From Diospyros lotus (taxonomy: Eukaryota > Streptophyta > Magnoliopsida > Ericales > Ebenaceae): a stretch of DNA of 64,000 nucleotides. The stretch is from positions 25,646,493 to 25,710,492 of the forward strand of contig NC_068347.1 of NCBI RefSeq assembly GCF_014633365.1, given 5' to 3'. Both the position numbers and the translations under genes were made by a program. Of this stretch, positions 51,893-64,000 are shown piece after piece. The notes below the pieces were generated by a model. The model was not told the origin of the DNA. It worked only from the letters and a program-made list of their open reading frames with translations, and made no database searches. Positions within the stretch are counted from its first letter, which is position 1; each line of letters opens with the position of its first letter.

Positions 51893-52341
51893 ACCAAATG
51901 GGGGGAAATTCTATTCACAGCGAGATTTTTACTATTCGCAACAATAATTAAAATAAATTTAATAATTACTCTTCGTAGCCAGAATTATTACTTGTTGCAG
52001 CCAACTATATTCCAAAATTGCCCTCATATATCCATACATCTCTACCGCCACTCGCCACCGTTCTCTACAGCATTTGGGCTTCTCTGCAATCTCCACTCGC
52101 CTCTGTCGCTTCCCTACAGTCGCACTTGCCGCCATCGCCTTCCCTACAGCCACATCTCTCTACTGTGCGCTTGGTGAGGTAATTTTTACTTATATGTTTT
52201 GATGTTTTGATTTTTTGGGTTGAAGATTTGAACTTAGAGGCTAGAAAAGGAGAGATTGGATGGGGCAAGGTGGTGGCAGCCTGGGTTCAGAGGCGGTGGA
52301 GGTGGCGGTGGCGACTGCCTCTGATCGGGCAGTCGCCCCTC

Positions 52342-52367
52342 GCCTCCGAAACCCAGGTTTCGGAGGC
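52342..52367. repeat. Hairpin: 12-bp perfect arms, 2-base loop
   Basis: GCCTCCGAAACC pairs with GGTTTCGGAGGC around a CA loop, inside a GC-rich block of the MULE (about 52260-52385) just downstream of a possible 5' UTR exon of the PMD gene (GGTGAG|GTAATT near 52177). Confidence 0.8.
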
Positions 52368-52723
52368 ATGTGCTACGTCCGAACCCTTTCATTTATTTTA
52401 TATTTTATTTTTTATACAAATATTTGAAAAAAAAAAAACTTAATTTTTTAATTAAATAGTGCTAATTAACATTTTTTTATACTTAATTTTTTATTTAAGT
52501 ATTGGAATTGAATAATTTAATTTTTAATACAAACAAATACATATTTTTTACTTAATTTTTTAAATCTAATAATGGATTTCCCAACTCACTGAACATATTT
52601 TATATTTTATATAATTATATTAACATATTTCTTATACTTAATTTTTATTTAAGTATTGGATTCGAATAATTTAATTTTTTTAAAAAATAAATATATATTT
52701 TGCACGAACTTTATCTAGTGTTT

Positions 52724-52810
52724 CCCGAACTCTAGAGTTCGGGGAAGCTGGAATTTCTCGAACTCTAGGATTCAGGAAATATGGATTTTCCCGAACCTCG
52801 ATGGTTCATT
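52724..52810. repeat. Palindromic CCGAA/TTCGG repeats 5' of the PMD gene
   Basis: CCCGAACTCTAGAGTTCGGG at 52724-52743 is a perfect 20-bp palindrome. Two degenerate units follow (CTCGAACTCTAGGATTCAGG and CCCGAACCTCGATGGTTC). The same kind of unit recurs upstream of the transposase gene at 58262-58440. Confidence 0.75.
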
Positions 52811-52894
52811 GTAATGTTAATAATTTTTGTTTAATAATTTTTTTATTGTAATGTTCTGCTTAATATTTTTTTATTTTTGTGTTATTTTGTAAAT

Positions 52895-54973
52895 ATGGTA
52901 CGTGGTAGAAGAGGTGAAGCTTCTTCATCTCGCCAGTCTTCTTCTTCTCAAGAGCGTTCTACTGCGTCGACTAGAAGAAGAAGGAGAATCTAGCGTTCTA
53001 GTGAATCGACTATTTTAGAGGTAGTAGAAGAGCCAGTAGCAGATTATGGGACACTAGTTGAGGAGCATCCCAACCCTAATCAAGGGGAAACAACTGACCA
53101 ACCATCTTCCTCTCAACACGATGATGATATTTCTGAACCACTACCTGGGAGCCCTAGTGATAGATCTATTCTAAAAAGTTTTAAAAATCATGTTGCATTT
53201 GTAATATGGGCAGGAGAGGTAAGTTATATTAAATTTTTTAATATTTATCTTTATAATTTAAATAATTACTTACTTCAAGTTTTTATAATTTAAATAATTA
53301 GGTATTTGAATTTTTTAACAGGAAATAGGCATATTAAAATATAGAAGTCATGGCCTTAAAATTCCTGAATGGCAATTGGATAATCAGCCTCGTGTTCGTG
53401 ATATTGTTATAAGTTCTAGTTTATCACCATTGCTAGAGTGTACTTATCGATATACAAATCATGCTATAGTCTCAACATTTACAGAGAGATGGCATCCTGA
53501 GACTAATACATTTCATTTACCATTCGGAGAGATAAGTATAACATTATATGATGTTGCTGCTATTTTGAAGATTCCAGTAACAGGAAGATCTATATCTGTG
53601 CCTCATCATTTGACACCTAGCGAAGCTAGTGATTTATTATGTAGGTTACTTGGGGTTTCATTAGATGTAGCAACACAACAAATTAAAGAGAATCGAGGAG
53701 CATTTGTAAAATTAGATTGGTTGAAAAGAACATTTATGCATCTACCAAATGAGGTTTCGAATGAAGAGATTGAACATATTAGTAGAGTATATCTGTTATT
53801 TTTATTATATTGTACTTTATTTGTAGATAAGAGTGGGACATTAGTTTCAGTACCGAATTTGACATTATTAGATGATTTAAGTATGATCGGTAATTATGCA
53901 TGGGGAGCTGCATGTCTCGCATATTTGTATCGATAACTCGGCATTGATACTAGACGAGAGGCGAAGAGTATCGCTGGATATCTTACTTTACTTGAGGTAA
54001 TTATTTTAATTTCATAATTTTATATCATATATTTATATATATTTAACATAATTATTTATATTAAATTTACAGGCATGGGTGTACGAGCATTTCCCTTTTA
54101 CGAGAATTAAATGTAACTTATTATATAGTGACGATCAGCCACGAGCTCTCCGTTAGATACCTGTTCGTGATACTGTTTCTTTACAATATATCAGGGAGCA
54201 GCTTGATGCTTTATCACCGGATTAGGTATTTATCATATATATGATTTGCAAGTTAATTAATATATTATAAAATTTAATTTCAAGCTAAATAATATTTACA
54301 GTTGATTTGGACGCCGTACCAGAAGGTTCAGGCACACCACCCATTTCTAAAAATTATATTTTTCTCAGGTTGTCTGAAATGTGGAAATATTATAGAATTA
54401 TATCATCCTGAAAGAGTTTTACGACAATTTGGGCATGTGCAAACTATTCCTCCACCCCATTATCACATGTTGAAGCTAGGCGGGGTCCGGGTACGGCTTC
54501 ATATCGGGTAATTTATACATTTGTTGATGATATTTGGAATCGATGGGATATGCATTTATTACCACCACGTCGACGTGGTAAATATTCTAAATTTCCATGG
54601 CATTTTACGCCTGAATATTTAACGTGGTATGGAGCTATTACACATCTAATTGTACAAAATCCTATACATCGATCAACTTTTGATAGAGGTGCAGAAGATA
54701 TGCTCAGTCTTGCTGAATCAGTAGGTTTTTAAATTATATTTAAGTTATTATTGAATTTAGTTTATTTAAATTAAAAAAATGATATAATTATTTTTGTTTC
54801 AGCGTAATCGACTAACATTATATGCTTTCGAACAGACGATATCAAGTACCGAGCTTGTATCTGCTGATGCATGGAGGGAGACATGTCTTGGGGTGAATAC
54901 CATTCTAGGCTCTCAGCATCCTGATGTTGATAATATTGGAGCGTCCACATCTGGTACATCTCCTCCAAGATAA
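52895..54973 (+). pseudogene. Plant mobile domain (PMD, MAIL1/MAIN-like) gene, MULE-borne, decayed
   Basis: Five exons fit GT-AG junctions and stay in phase: 52895-53218, 53322-53996, 54073-54225, 54302-54720, 54803-54973. Family text includes HVAFVIW at the end of exon 1, LDNQPRVRDIV and ERWHPETNTFHLPFGE then TLYDVAAIL in exon 2, and RVLRQFG and WDMHLLPP in exon 4. PMD proteins such as MAIL1 and MAIN act in plant nuclei on gene and transposon silencing with PP7L; related domains are carried by transposons. Stops at 52991 (TAG), 53934 (TAA), 54154 (TAG) and 54223 (TAG), and a frameshift near 54470-54485, kill this copy. Exon 1 encodes a Ser/Arg-rich basic start. Its place inside the MULE repeats argues against a host gene. 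Confidence 0.85.
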
Positions 54974-57900
54974 TCAATATCAAGTTCACTTCGGACTAAT
55001 TATAGCACCGAGTTGCTTATAGTTGTTGTTTATAGCACCGAGTTGCTTATAGTTGTTGTTTATAGTTGTAATTCGTAAATTATAATTTTGAATTGTGTAT
55101 AACTTGTAATATTATTTTATTTTAATATTTACTGTTAAATTTTATTATGATTTATCTAATTTTAATACCATTTACACAAAAATTAAAAGAATAAATTAAT
55201 GAAAGAAATAAATATAACTTTGTGCAATTTTGACACTTCTAACAAAATAAAGAAATATTACAATCATATAATATAAAACATATATTCATCAATTAAATAA
55301 AAAATATATAATGTAAAACATACATATTGGTCATTCTTCATTTATCAGTTAAATCAAAAACATCATTTGTAATAACATTTTTGTTAATAAGAGACAGAAA
55401 TGCTTAAATTTGAGTTATATACGGTGTTTCTCATTCACGTGCAATATCATATCGATATTTATGTCAATTGCGTGCAACGGGAGGAATTGGTGACTCTGAT
55501 TTAAGAGATACCTAATAAAATGATAAGACAATATTGTTAGTACCAAATTTATATTAACATAATTATAGGAATATATAAATAAATTATTAAATAATAATAC
55601 CTGTACAAAATGACAATCATCTACAAAACCAATAGTAATAATTCTATGTTGTATAACTGAAGGGGCGACTGATCTCAATGGAAGGTAGGTAAGACACTAC
55701 ATTCGAGATAAATGAACCAATATAACATTATATTTTGAAGCAATCAAATGATTCATGTCAGGTAAAGTCATCCAATGTTGAGGAGGTGCAACACACTCAA
55801 AGCAAGAAAATGCGTGCATTAATTCATCTACACGCATAGTAGATCCATATAACTCTATATACTCATCACGAAAAGTATGCAACTCTTCAATCAGATTCAT
55901 ACGAATATCCCTCCAGTTGTGCTCACTCATTCCAAACAACGCAACAATAGCACGAAATCCACAATGTCCATCCGACTCCACATTAACAATATTATGTATA
56001 AAATGATGTATTTTTGATGGGAATGAAGCATCATAGCCTAGCAATCTGTGTTTGACACTGGTACGATAAAGTTTACCTTCATTCGGTGTCTTAACTGAGT
56101 TTTGTGTTGTTGGAGATGTACTGTCATGAATAGACTGTACTATTTCAAAATATGATGGATCACGTCAAGTGGATGTATCAACCTAAATGTTATTCTTTGA
56201 TGATGGCTTACATTTTGTCCGAACTTTCACACTTGGTGGGATCAATGAAGTCGTAGTTGGATCTATTAATTCTCTCAACTTCTGTTTTAATACGATTTTA
56301 CCTTCTGGTGGTTCTGACTGAAATATATTATATATACTTTCTAATTCTGGATCAATAGTTAACACTGAGTACGTATCAACAGTTTGCACTAAATCTAATT
56401 TTGTCCAATAAGGGTGCACAAACGATAAAGGAATTGGTCGTCCCTCCATCATTAATTCTGCAATTTCATGTGCACAAGGTAAACCATGTGTGCTTCTTAT
56501 CACACATCCACATGCAACCTTATCCACCCCAATTTTTTGAGCTATCTGTGTTTGCTTTAACACCATATTCATTGCATTTCTTGATATAATACCTCTCAAT
56601 TCTCTAAAATTTGTTGCCTGAAATTATGTTGTACCAACATTAAACTCTTCTCAAAAGACCTCTTGATCTCGGTATGTTGCAACTCAATAAGAGAATTGAT
56701 AATTTTTCATGATGACTCAAAGTCACCTTGAGATGATCCCAGATATCTCTTCAGCTTCGCATGTGCACTCTCAGCCCTTTGAATACAAACATAAGCAGTA
56801 TTAAATTAATAAAAGATTAATTAGAGATATTATAATAAAAATAATAACAACAACATTTGAGTTTACTAAAGAATACCTGTTAGTAGTGACATTGCCAAAA
56901 TGTAATACTTTATTTGTCCACGCTGCAATAAATTTTTCTTTATAATCATTAATAAAGTCTTTCTCACATAATCAAGTGCTTATTCATATGCATGATACTC
57001 AATCATTAAGTCACATAGCAGACTTTGATACTCAATCTCAGCAGGGGCAAAAACAAGAAGATTCCATTGTAACATAAACTTCTCCCATGTCTCATTTCTA
57101 TCAACAAATTTCTTACACTTAGCAAGTACATTTTTAGATACATGTCACCTACATAATAAGGTCCTCGTACTTGGAAAGACTTTATGTATTGCATTCATCA
57201 ATGCTAATTCTCTATCAGTGACAATTACTCCTGAAAATGTATTAGATCCAATCACATTCTTTAATCTCTCCATAACCCATGTATAGTTATCCTCGTATTC
57301 ATGGTTCATAAATACAAATGCAACAGGAAAAGTTAACTCAGTAGATGTTACACTAACAATCTCAAGAAGTGGATACTTATACCTGTTAGTTTTGTATGTA
57401 CAGTCCATTATTAAGACATGTGGAAATACTTTTAATAAATCTATAGACATCGAATGAGCCCAAAATAAGTCTGCAATACAATTTATTGATCCATCGCTTC
57501 TGTGTCACTCCACATAATTACATTCTCTTAATTTCTTCATCAACTGTTGCATTTGTGATCTACCACATTTCTCAATAAGTTTGTATTTTTGACGCGCATT
57601 ATATATAGTTTTGATAGTTGTAACATTATTCTCATCATCTACCTTTAGGCTCATCAAAATATTTATAGGTTTCACAAGATTCTCAGACATTGTTTTTAAA
57701 ATTACTTTCTCTTTTTCTATAAGCCTCCCTGCATATGAATGACCCTCCAGTTGAACTACTAGTGCATGATTGTGCAGCCCACATACAACTTTCAACACCC
57801 ACTACTCAAATTTCATACCAAATAATTCAAACGGACAATCACACTTTTTTGAACTTGTGTACTTGCGTTTTAATTCTCCTATTGTTCTTTCTTTCCTTTT

Positions 57901-58261
57901 CGATAGTCTATACTTTTCACTACATTCACAAGCAAGACGAACTCTAAGTCTTTTTCCAGGACCCCCAGATTCTGAACTCTTGATCATAATCACAATTCCA
58001 TTTTCTTTTCCAATTTTCCTAGCCCATCCAATGAGTGCTTCTCTAGTATCAAATAGCTAATACAACAAAAAATATTCAGATATATTTTTATCTATAATTA
58101 TATATTTCAAACAAAATTATTAAAAATCTATCATACCTCATTAGTAGTAAATTGTTCAATAACATCAAATTGCTGGATTGCACAATTCGATTCCTATAAA
58201 AAAATCAATAAAAAAAAAACAAAGATTGCAACCGTAATTTGAAATTGAAAAAAACCATATT

Positions 58262-58440
58262 TCCCAAAGCCTAACATTCGGGAAGTCCCAACTTTTTCGA
58301 ATGCTAAGGTTCGGGGAGACTAGCCTTCCCCGAAGGCCAGCGTTCGGGAAGGATAACCTTCCCTGAAGGCTAGCATTTGGGGAGGCCAGCTTTCGAGGAA
58401 GGCTAGCCTTCCTGAACGCAGGAGTTCGGGGAAGTTTGGG
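58262..58440. repeat. Array of palindromic CCGAA...TTCGG units 5' of the transposase domains
   Basis: About six units of ~25-30 bp, for example CCCCGAAGGCCAGCGTTCGG near 58337, CCTGAACGCAGGAGTTCGGG near 58410 and TTCGAATGCTAAGGTTCGGG near 58297. Each has a CCGAA-like left arm and TTCGGG-like right arm. A long minus-strand open frame here is a by-product of the repeat. Confidence 0.7.
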
Positions 58441-58576
58441 GAAGAGTTTGAGAAAGTTTGGGGAAGCCTTGCCCTTTTTCAATATATTAAGAAACAAACA
58501 CTTCTTAATCCATTTTTCAACGGATTCCAACACAACCTATATTACTCTTACAAACACAAACACATATTTTAGAAAC

Positions 58577-61500
58577 TGTAAAGATCCGAAAAAGAAAAAT
58601 AATAAAAAAATAATTAAATTAAATTATATATATATAATAATTAAAAAAGGTAAAAATATAAAAAGAAAAGGGGGAGGCGCTCGGCAACCCCCCCAACAGA
58701 AATCAACTTTCTCTCTCTCTCTTTTATTTTCTCTCTTGCTCATTCTCGGATTTTCTTCGATTCCAAACGATCGAACCATTCGATCTTCGATCCGACTTCA
58801 TTTTTACTGTTAAAGCGCCCCCGATCTACAAAGAGGTAATTATTTTGGCTTCATCTTTACGGTTTTTCTTGTTGTTTTCGTGAAATGTGGGTTGAGGCGC
58901 GATGGGGCTTTTTGGCCGAATGTTTGAGGTTAGATCTACGAAGATCCAACCGTTGGATTTCTGTGATTTTTGGATATGATGGTTGGTTTACTTGAGGGAG
59001 TTGGGTGGCAGTCTTGGATCGCCGGAAATCGCCGGCCACGGGGGCCGGCGAAGTTGGCAGTTTGTTTGTCCATTCTGGCCGAGAGTTTGACTCTAGATCT
59101 ACGAAGATCTAGCCATCCGATCTTTCTCATTTTTGGGTATGTCGCTCTCCTTGGTGCTGCGCACCTCGGGGTAGCCTCTAATCGTTGGAAAAATAGCCGG
59201 CCAGCAAACGGCAATCGCCAGATTTCGCCCCTATTTTGGCCAAAAATTAATTCTCAGATCTATTAAGATCTGACCGTCCGATGGGTTTCATTTTAAGGTA
59301 TGTTGTTATTCGTGGCGAGGGCTTCGTATCGGTATATTGATCAGCTGTTTTTGGCAGGCCGACGGTGGTCGCCGACGGTGGTAGTTTGCTGGGAAGGAAA
59401 AGAAAGAAAAGAAAAGGAAAAGAAAGGAAAGAAAAGAAAAGAAAAAAAAAAGAATAAAATAAATAAAATATAAGGAAAAAAGAAATGAGGGCTTTTGGGA
59501 TTGGGCATGTCGGGTTAGGTTTTGGCCTAGGATGGTGGGGCCCAATTGAGTTTTAGGATGGCCCAATGTGTTGGGCATGACTAACTCAGTTGTGGCAGCC
59601 CTTGGGCTGGCCCACTTGGCTTGTTCTCCCTTGTCGTTTGTCCGTGGACCTAGGATGACTTGGTTAGGTTGGTCCTACTCAGGATATCGAGGTTGATCTA
59701 ATTTGAGTTCTCTTTAGGTCTCCTAGAATTGGCAATATGATTGGCGAGTCATTTTGTTGATCGGAGTCCTAAGGACGAAGCCCTATTAGATGACTCGAGG
59801 CCGAGCAAGATTGACCCAGAGTGCGTTCTAGGCTAGCTTATGATGATGACATGGGTTTATTTCGAATCCTGATTTCTGATGGATTCCTTTTATTTTGAGG
59901 CTAGAATATTGCAATTTATTCCTTTTAAACCATTTATTAAATTATTAATTAATTATTAAGTTTTTAAGAAAATTTATCAATTTAGTTATAAATATATATA
60001 TATATGTATGTATTTTTGATAAATGAGGAATTTAGATAAAAAAAAATATTATCTATATTAAAAGAAAACTAGTTTATAGGTAAATATATATATATATATT
60101 ATGATATTGCAGCTTATAAGTGGGTGTGTGGTTCCACTATACACTTACGCGTAGCATGCAAGACGAGGCATGATGACGTAGTTGATGGCCTAACTCGACG
60201 AATTCCATGACGCCAGATTTGAATATTGTGCGGGCCAAGGTATTAAATAATCAATTCAGGGTATTAGGTAATGGTTAGGGTTTTCGGTAATTTCATTTCA
60301 TCGTTATTCTTATTAAGTAAATGTGACCACCCCATTCTATTTATTGTAGGATCAGATTCTCAGGATTTTGTTCGATCTTCACCCTAGACTCAGACTTTAG
60401 TCATCGTTTCCCAAGCGAATAGACATGATATGTTATGTTTACCATATTTTTATGCACGTATATAAATTGTTCTATGCATATCTTGTAAATGATTTCTATA
60501 TGCGAATCATAGAAAATATTCTCTTTTAAATGTTCCTAAATTACATGAAATATTTTCATCCTACTAGGAGAGACATAACAGAAAGATACCCTAACTGAAT
60601 TCTTATCTTGAGCATGTGAAATATATGATGATATGGTGTATTTTAGGCACCACTTAAATTGATAAATGGTTATGACTTGTGCATAAATTAGGGTATCATT
60701 TGCATTATTATTAGAGGACTATATAGTAGATTCCATGGTGACTCACAGTAGGAAAAGATCATGGTACTGTGAGGCTTGGCATGCCAAGGCCATGAGAGAC
60801 ACGGATAGTATGTTTCAGCACTGCTATCACGTGGGCCTTTATGATGATATTGTGTGATGATGATGTATGTGTCGATATATATACTTGTGTGCATGTGTAT
60901 ATAGGCGTTATGCCAGTTTCTACTAGTGTGTCCTCAAGATCAGTGCATGCATCTCTTACAAAAGTATAGAAGACTTAGGTGGTTAAGGAACAACTTATGG
61001 GGGTTGTCTTTAGGCACCTATTTTTCCTACACTATGTTTTCTTTTGAAACTTCAAATTATTTAAACTTATGATTCATATTTTCGCTGTTTATACCGTTAT
61101 TATGTTATTGTACTCATAATGATCATCTTAGCATTTTTATTGTATACTCTCATAATGGGCATGACATACCTTATACTCGCGAGTCCACAAGACTCACCCT
61201 TTTTTATTAAAAATATTTTCAGGGAATTCTCCTTTTGATTATTGGTCTAGCAGATCTTATGGTATGATATCATACCTTCTTTTTTATTCTGGACGTAATA
61301 TAGGATGCTCTGTGGAGATATACACGTGTTGTAGAGTCTGATGTTTTGTCCTTTATTTTTGTTGGCACATAATTGTGCCAAGGGCTCGAGGTACGGGCAC
61401 AGATATGTATTTATGATAGCAGTGTGATAGATATTTTGTACAGTTGCTATATATGGAATATTGAGATATTATGTTAGAAGGTGAATTGGTATTTTATTCA

Positions 61501-61630
61501 TGTTTTATATCTTGTCAGTAGTATTGTCTTATTCAAATCAAGCTAGAGAAGAGACTTACTAGTCTATTGTGGGGCCGCTGGGCCTAGGGATTAGTGCCGG
61601 TCATGACATATTAGATTTCAGGTCGTGACA
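58577..61630. mobile_element. Solo LTR of 3.05 kb inside the MULE transposase gene
   Basis: The ends read TGTAAAGATCC and GGTCGTGACA, imperfect inverted repeats of the TGT-A-GA-CC type common in large plant Gypsy LTRs. The flanks GAAAC (58572-58576) and AAAAC (61631-61635) form a 5-bp duplication with one transition. It lies between transposase exons 61746-61657 and 58193-58137. No gag or pol is found. Inside are a duplicated motif (AGATCTACGAAGATC and relatives at about 58932, 59095 and 59256), GA-rich tracts and scattered ATG-poor sequence. The Gypsy assignment is inferred from size and ends. Confidence 0.7.
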
Positions 61631-62034
61631 AAAACACGCATTTACAGATTACTTACCTGTGCATAATATTCTTTTTCTAAATAGTTGTTCTGTTCTTCCT
61701 CAAACTCTTCCTAGTTCTTCGTCAATATTTTAGTGTAGTAATTCATGAACGATCATAAAATGGATGAGTCACTGATATGTATTTGAGAGAAAATGGGTTA
61801 GTATGAGTGTGAGTCTGAAAGTGGGTCTGAGAGGGAGATGGATGAGAATAGATTTGATTGGGATATGAGCTATTGTGAAGAAGAAATTACAGAATTTCGA
61901 CAGCGAAAGACGACATGTCAGGTAGTGGTTGAGTATTGAAGGTAAGGGTAAAATTGAACTTTTATTTGAGGGTATTTTAGATATATTTAAAAATGATTGC
62001 GAAGAGTAAAACGCTCACTGCGAATAGAATTTCC

Positions 62035-64000
62035 ACCAAATGGGTCATGGTGTTGGAAGTTTCATTAAGCTATTTATTTTTATTTATTTTAATTTAAATT
62101 AATTTAAGATATTAAGTCTTATTTGATCTTAATTAATATTGTTAGTAACATAGGGAGTGTTTTTACAATTTAAACAAAATATATGCTTTAACAAAAAGTA
62201 CAAACTACATAGGGATGTACAATGAAATTATCTTTTGTTTAATTAAGAATCTTACCTTCAACTATACTTGTCTACTTTTAACCATGGTAAAAGTAATTAT
62301 GTATTTTGTTTTCTTTTTACATGAAATATTCGGATCTCGTTTGGATCAAGTAAAGAGACAAAATTTGATGTGTAAGCAGGGGCGGATGCAAAGGGGCCTG
62401 GGGTTGGACTGTGATTGGACTTTTATATATTTATATATATATATGTATTATTGTTTAATATATATATTTTACTGTTTAGTTGGGCCTGTCCGTGCCAACT
62501 CTTGTACATCTATCCTTGTGTGTAAGTTCAGTCTTAAAAATTCATGTCATGATTTTAGATTTAGTTACACATTATTTGTCATTATAGGTAACCAGTGGTA
62601 AACCCTTGTGATACACGGGAGAATTTAATTTAAAAGTAAAAGATTAAACTCGTTATTTTAAATAATTATAATATAATTGATAATTATAGTTTCTTTTTCT
62701 TTTAATACTTAGTCTTTTATCAAAATTTAAATTTAATTAATTATTCGCTATTCAATACATTAATGGAGAATACTCTTAATTCAAAGTACCACCATTTAAT
62801 ATGTTAAAGAATAATTAACACATTAAGTATGTCATTTGGCAAAATACTTATAATTTTTTATTTATTATATTATATTTATTTATAAATAAATATTATAAAA
62901 TCTATAATATATCCACTTTCATTTTTTATATTTATTATATTATAAATATAAATTAAAATTCTTAAATGTGAGTAAGAAAAAGTTTTTCAATAATAACAAA
63001 ACTTTAAAAAAAATAATTTTGATTTCTTCCATAGTCTTAAAAATATGATACCTGAAATATTAATTAATATTGAAAAACTCAAGCACTTGACAACCTTAAA
63101 TATTTTTTTTATGAATCTGTTAAGATATCACATTTCAAGACTATAATATAATTATTAAAGTAAAATTAATAATTAATTAATTACTACATTTGATTTAATG
63201 CAAGTTTTTTTGAGAGAACAAATTCACCATTAATTGACACTTGGCAAAATATTTTGCCTGACTATATTATTTTAATATTATATATATATTTATATAGAAT
63301 AAAGATATAAATATAAGATTTTAAATAAATAGATAATTTTCTATGACTTAATTAATAGTTTAAGTTGACTATTAATATTTCTCATAAAACTCATGTAAAT
63401 TTAATAAAAATTTTAGAGGCAAAAGCAGCTTGGCAAATTTTTGGAGGGAAAAAAAAATTGCAAACTATTATAATTTAATATAATATATTATATATTATTA
63501 TATTATATTAGGATTAGATTTTATTTAATGGACAGTTTTTTGTGACCTAATTTATACTTTAAGTGTCTATTCATATTCCTCTTAAATAGTATTTATTTTT
63601 GATTGATTGACAGAATAATTAAATATTTAATATTCGCATAATAAAGTATTAAAAAACCCATAATTAGTATTGAAAAACTCATGTATTTAAAAGTTATTAT
63701 TAATTTTACAGTAATTAGTACTTATTATTTCAAAATAATTAAAAATTTTAAATTATTAATGCAAATTACTAAATATAAATTATTAATACAATAAGTATTA
63801 AATGTAAATTATTAATGCAAGTTTTGGGGGGAAACTTTTTTTTTTTCAGACTATCCTACTTTTATATATATAAAGTCAGTCTTTTATAAAAATTTAAGTT
63901 TAATTAATTATTCACTATTCAATATGCTAATGGAGAATACTCTTAATTCAATATATTGTCATTCAATGTGTTAAAGAATAATTAACACAATAAGTAGATC
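62035..64000. other. AT-rich intergenic region at the right edge
   Basis: No gene is supportable; the open frame at 62215-62601 has no family signature and a composition like its surroundings. From about 62600 on, the sequence consists of degenerate repeated blocks, the clearest being the 119-bp direct repeat entered separately. The block probably continues beyond the window. Confidence 0.5.
62711..63996. repeat. 119-bp direct repeats 1,167 bp apart
   Basis: AGTCTTTTAT...TTAAGTA at 62711-62829 recurs at 63878-63996 (AGTCTTTTAT...ATAAGTA) with about a dozen substitutions. Between them other words repeat in order (for example TATTGAAAAACTCA near 63070 and 63670, and TTTAAGT-GACTATT-type text near 63360 and 63560), so the region looks like diverged copies of a larger unit. 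The right copy ends at the window edge. Confidence 0.75.

Follow-up and report, generated by a model that had tools for sequence, protein, structure and literature searches.

A two-gene Mutator-like transposon of Diospyros lotus with a plant mobile domain gene opposite its transposase, and a possible link to VANC

The 64,000-nucleotide stretch of the Diospyros lotus genome analysed here (contig NC_068347.1; hereafter the window, numbered from its first letter) contains a two-gene Mutator-like element (MULE) in decayed form. The element carries a transposase gene and, convergent with it, a gene for a plant mobile domain (PMD) protein. This two-gene unit has spread whole in the D. lotus genome, with 9-bp target duplications, and protein distances and substitution ratios show its two genes evolving jointly, under purifying selection. 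The explanation that we prefer, and hold at even chances, is that the PMD protein is an anti-silencing helper of the type of VANC, known from Arabidopsis VANDAL elements, acting at arrays of palindromes in the element DNA.

The element and its convergent gene pair

The terminal inverted repeats (TIRs) begin at 51903 and end at 62034/62035; the left end aligned with the reverse-complemented right end over about 65 bp, without gaps for roughly the first 39. An identical 10-mer, ACCAAATGGG, flanks both ends (51893–51902 and 62035–62044), giving a target duplication of 9–10 bp. When the 630 Mb D. lotus genome was searched, the left TIR (51903–51966, plus strand) matched 39 other scored copies at 87–93% and the right TIR (61970–62034, minus strand; query 61950–62034) matched 39 at 84–95%. 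A preliminary description of this DNA had claimed TIRs, a direct duplication and a bounded element from 51902 to 62034. The repeats, the duplication and the ends are borne out, but the 10.1 kb so enclosed is not the length of the element proper, which is about 7.1 kb because a nested solo long terminal repeat (LTR) of 3054 bp is included (58577–61630, plus strand; TG...CA). This LTR is a later insertion upstream of the transposase gene and outside the MULE proper. It is flanked by GAAAC and AAAAC (one mismatch), its final 400 bp match 39 other scored places in the genome at 90–94%, and other copies of the element match across the junction of its joined empty site. A uniform 10-kb element was ruled out, as the LTR, with its empty site in other copies, accounts for the surplus length.

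Two decayed genes converge within these ends, as previously described. The PMD gene (52895–54973, plus strand; its limits, like its start codon at 52895, are an interpretive reading) has a main exon at 53319–53933 matching PF10536 (E 3.8e-32) and further open pieces at 54065–54241, 54293–54508, 54412–54729 and 54788–54973, the second of which continues the PMD sequence (PF10536, E 5.9e-8, under the cut-off). The transposase gene with its OTU-like C-terminal part (55415–58056, minus strand; limits likewise interpretive) has a core exon at 57148–57504 matching PF10551 (E 4e-23) and an OTU-like exon at 55700–56164. It was called decayed because an exon of 358 codons has three in-frame stops. The PF10551 domain, the TIRs and a duplication within the range of 8–11 bp together place the element among the MULEs. 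In intact-looking copies of a younger subfamily (B, below), the transposase is a single open stretch of 895 codons with the MULE domain (PF10551, 1.3e-26 in an intact copy), and the PMD gene is present as two open stretches of 227 and 244 codons.

Used as queries, the transposase core and the OTU-like and PMD exons each gave at least 150 scored matches in the genome, and all locus counts are accordingly lower bounds; merging the matches left 144 listed transposase loci and 144 listed PMD loci. Within 12 kb, 110 of the listed PMD loci had a convergent transposase, three had one on the same strand, 31 had none and none was divergent; a convergent PMD gene was present at 108 of the listed transposase loci and absent from 36. 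This pairing is not due to chance, because random placement, repeated 200 times, put on average just 1.0 PMD loci (maximum 5) within 12 kb of any transposase. When the limit was set at 6 kb, partners were exclusively convergent (95 PMD and 94 transposase loci), the remainder having none. At 30 kb, 115 PMD loci had a convergent and three a same-strand transposase, with 26 lacking one, and 114 transposase loci had a convergent and one a divergent PMD gene, with 29 lacking one; the partners gained beyond 12 kb fit nested insertions in some copies. Both element ends and the convergent gene pair thus recurred in the genome search and orientation check that the preliminary description had proposed, and a one-off capture of PMD is ruled out by the genome-wide recurrence of the ends, the transposase, the OTU-like exon, PMD and the convergent pairs. 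At C10:5988403-5989017 and C10:5989961-5990575, two PMD copies on opposite strands stand back to back with 0.9 kb between them, and no listed transposase lies within 12 kb.

The transposase had also been described as carrying an OTU domain. No Pfam OTU or otubain match over the cut-off was obtained for the window OTU-like exon or for an intact copy, and otubain (Peptidase_C65) was matched weakly in two of 31 alignment rows (best 0.047). In favour of the label is the motif DG[H/N]CGFR. The signature of OTU proteases is Asp-Gly-x-Cys plus a downstream His; across two alignments, with 31 and 41 rows, the Asp and Cys of the motif and a downstream His are near-invariant, although the Cys is missing from one relative (P0008) and the window exon stops short of the His. 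Five listed relatives are annotated 'OTU domain-containing'. The tail may add a deubiquitinase-like activity to the transposase.

Mobility, co-inheritance and selection

Twenty full loci were examined from two younger subfamilies, B (L009–L019) and C (L020–L028), the window element belonging to subfamily A. With boundaries picked for the best duplication match (about 30 alternatives in one round, several hundred in another), perfect 9-bp duplications were found at 19 of the 20 loci, next to TIR ends resembling GGGAAATTC or GGGTAATTC; for L028 no right end was found, and L023 has a duplication of low-complexity sequence. L012 and L016 have 9.7 kb in common at 99.96% identity and so represent one insertion duplicated together with its surroundings. 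In subfamily A, all five end pairs taken had perfect duplications. Two of these subfamily A elements, which lie on different chromosomes, L029/L030 (C12) and L031/L032 (C11), have the same duplication 9-mer, TAAGTTTTA, by either segmental duplication or coincidence. Whole-copy identity, summed over BLAST pieces, reached 98.9% in B and 98.8% in C. One locus, L019, is a 4977-bp derivative that has kept PMD, covers 187 of 358 residues of the transposase query and has a perfect 9-bp duplication. A PMD copy at C8:31347064, with a right TIR 2.0 kb further on and no listed transposase, may be another derivative of this kind.

For 51 elements (the window element, the 20 full loci and 30 further pairs chosen across the range of similarity), the protein distances of PMD and of the transposase were strongly correlated (r = 0.911), a value reached in none of 2000 permutations. 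The preliminary description had proposed a comparison of the two trees for co-evolution. Clusters of the two proteins agreed with an adjusted Rand index of 0.92 at a cut of 0.20 and 0.96 at 0.28; at 0.35, where all transposases fall into one cluster, it was 0.00. Ratios of non-synonymous to synonymous divergence (dN/dS) were taken as Nei-Gojobori medians binned by PMD dS, the pairs having branches in common and so not being independent tests. From close to distant bins they were 0.42, 0.53, 0.35, 0.37, 0.23, 0.22 and 0.25 for PMD and 0.70, 0.53, 0.55, 0.39, 0.42, 0.27 and 0.26 for the transposase. In both genes close copies are decaying and distant copies show constraint, and purifying selection on PMD is about as strong as on the transposase. 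It is therefore element-level selection that maintains PMD. In all nine pairs printed, PMD dS was higher than transposase dS; recombination or conversion between transposase genes is a possible cause.

Palindrome arrays and the proposed role of the PMD protein

The noncoding DNA adjoining both genes contains 20-bp palindromes of the form CCCGA[A/C]-N8-[G/T]TCGGG. In the window, sites upstream of PMD (52724–52795) comprise units at 52724 and 52757 and a half-site at 52790, with a 33-bp period; a further isolated unit lies at 52345, and an array upstream of the transposase (58263–58433) has units at 58263, 58296, 58329, 58362 and 58411. Allowing up to two mismatches, there were 10–19 sites in ten B elements, 13–23 in eight C elements and eight in the window, and a mean of 0–0.6 in dinucleotide-shuffled controls (five per element). 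Among site pairs less than 150 bp apart, the rarest spacings being outside the totals, neighbours were spaced exactly 33 bp apart in 99 of at least 130 cases in B, 82 of at least 112 in C and four of five in the window. Palindromes were present upstream of the transposase in 19 of 19 elements, and upstream of PMD numbered 2–11 in C, three in the window and 0–6 in B. The C elements have an additional array in mid-element, which probably lies between the two genes. The main half-site is CCCGAC in B and CCCGAA in A and C. The number of CCCGAA/TTCGGG words in the left regions of C copies ranged from 2 to 18 despite the identity of at least 95.4% of listed C pairs, and in B the simpler word CGGGG/CCCCG was clearly enriched on the right and mostly not on the left.

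Genome-wide, the exact pattern occurred 1851 times, against 141 for a reversed control. The palindromes are not exclusive to the listed two-gene copies, because several clusters lie outside known PMD-transposase pairs among the matches listed (C1, up to 18.07 Mb). The arrays at C1:2263248-2264111 and C1:15187432-15188495, away from listed pairs, possibly belong to non-autonomous members or to other families.

The molecular function of PMD, both transposon-borne and in MAIN/MAIL1, has been called unknown (Ikeda 2017, PMC5418596; PMC8616336). A relative of the element PMD is predicted to resemble the fold of VANC21 (structures 9lnj/9lnk). VANC21 is a helper of the Arabidopsis MULE VANDAL21/Hiun and binds, sequence-specifically, repeated short noncoding motifs that diversify by tandem repetition (PMC5735166), a property that is putative for PMD here. 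The targets of VANC proteins lie in fast-changing noncoding tandem repeats, in upstream regions and introns (PMC5735166), and the dense arrays of short motifs in the noncoding DNA of the present element have a similar architecture. The motifs themselves differ, that of VANC21 being the 9-bp YAGTATTAY (PMC5735166). VANC carries DUF1985 (PF09331), and 26 of 42 PMD proteins matched this domain at E ≤ 10, but the element PMD was not filed as a VANC because the best score, 25.5 bits, is under the cut-off of 35.1. Two rows of the same alignment also match DUF7745 (best 3.9e-4), perhaps a further branch of a PMD/VANC superfamily. DUF1985 itself is abundant in D. lotus (at least 150 scored places), so that a single plant may harbour MULE helpers of both the PMD and the VANC type. 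A literature search, with most subscription papers outside its scope, found nothing joining DUF1985 with 'plant mobile domain', nor the publication of 9lnj, though a meeting report describes the then-unpublished structure.

From the predicted fold match and the arrays we infer that the PMD protein would be a sequence-specific DNA-binding helper of the VANC type. It would bind the palindromes, whose 33-bp period is about three helical turns and which lie mostly upstream of both genes, and would there counter silencing, making expression of transposase and PMD possible; like VANC targets, the arrays would change from one subfamily to the next. The preliminary description had suggested that PMD may be a transposon helper that perhaps counters silencing or aids insertion. 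A second, convergent gene that recurs, is co-inherited and is selectively kept is supported, and the predicted VANC21 fold and the arrays strengthen a role as helper, perhaps against silencing.

The arrays could instead be subterminal binding sites of the transposase, through an N-terminal FAR1/AFT-like zinc domain, with PMD a mudrB-like helper of transposition acting on insertion and not on silencing. The transposase N-termini do match FAR1 and AFT (each in 24 of 31 rows at E ≤ 1), the arrays are located toward both element ends, and mudrB is 'apparently required for integration' (PMC6446971). However, the mid-element array of C, the match of the predicted PMD fold to an anti-silencing protein and the like placement of VANC motif arrays (PMC5735166) make this reading doubtful. 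We also think it unlikely that the element PMD acts as a decoy for the host MAIN/MAIL1/PP7L silencing complex, titrating or poisoning it and binding no element DNA, as this leaves the subfamily-specific arrays and the predicted VANC21 match unexplained, and the one host gene that could be identified belongs to the MAIL2 type, which was not found to have a silencing role in Arabidopsis (PMC5418596). In its favour, MAIN and MAIL1 work with PP7L in transposon silencing (PMC8616336), core PMD residues are common to element-clade and host forms, the PMD of L009 is 33–45% identical to the tested MAIL2 proteins over the aligned part, and counter-silencing has been suggested before (PMC5418596; PMC8616336). 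A passive passenger, captured once and then copied along, is very improbable even though captured gene fragments are common in MULEs (PMC6446971) and 36 of the listed transposase loci have no PMD gene that lies within 12 kb, since PMD dN/dS between subfamilies is about 0.2, near or under that of the transposase, long PMD exons are retained in subfamilies 64–70% identical in protein, and partners within 6 kb are always convergent. The selection on PMD also sets it apart from a Pack-MULE passenger, a captured gene fragment that lacks selection at element level.

Relation to known transposons and host proteins

In maize MuDR, mudrA and mudrB have a convergent layout. The D. lotus element resembles it as a two-gene MULE but differs in that the second gene encodes a PMD protein. 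The preliminary description had suggested that the convergent pair may be undescribed; however, Table 1 of Dupeyron 2019 (PMC6446971) already records PMD antisense to the transposase in MULE group 42 and in many or some members of groups 47–50, with TIRs and 9–10 bp duplications in several groups. The likeness is one of description, and what is tabulated there does not extend to selection, co-inheritance, a relation to VANC or motif arrays. VANDALs are non-TIR elements according to one review and have TIRs of 46–174 bp in the same table (PMC6446971). In grass and Amborella MULEs the PMD-C domain is fused to the transposase (Ikeda 2017, PMC5418596), whereas here PMD is a separate gene on the opposite strand. 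That paper had also proposed, as speculation, that PMD carried by MULEs acts against silencing (PMC5418596).

The element PMDs of D. lotus clustered with PMDs of Camellia, Cinnamomum, Stephania, Prunus and others, which were placed by protein sequence alone, in unrooted trees with support of 100/100 (100/99 in a second tree). Although the PMD domain (PF10536) is common to host MAIN/MAIL proteins, the element clade is set apart by long branches from MAIL2 orthologues, among them L005 of D. lotus, and from five further PMD loci of this species (L001–L004 and L006). The suggestion that the PMD genes of the host are derived from such elements finds no support in this separation (100/100, unrooted), and capture of host PMD-C by MULEs has been argued (Ikeda 2017, PMC5418596). 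Public annotations of four transposon-type proteins (P0001, P0003, P0121 and P0124) as 'PKS-NRPS hybrid synthetase cheA-like' or 'MAIN-LIKE 1-like' look like misannotations. Tea (Camellia sinensis) belongs to the same order as D. lotus. It has 175 loci at PMD genes that produce phased small interfering RNAs (PMC10673657), and in many of these the host may be silencing element PMDs.

Somewhat short of an even chance, in our estimate, is the wider proposal of a single ancient superfamily, made up of PMD and VANC (DUF1985) proteins of plant MULEs that bind DNA sequence-specifically and form two anti-silencing branches. The silencing proteins MAIN/MAIL of the host would belong to it too, with the opposite effect, and the palindromes with a 33-bp period would be the PMD targets. 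The proposed link to VANC, a DNA-binding protein whose structure has been solved in complex with its target, together with the candidate sites makes PMD function directly testable. If the proposal is true, two systems by which plant transposons counter silencing, handled separately in the papers cited, would become joined.
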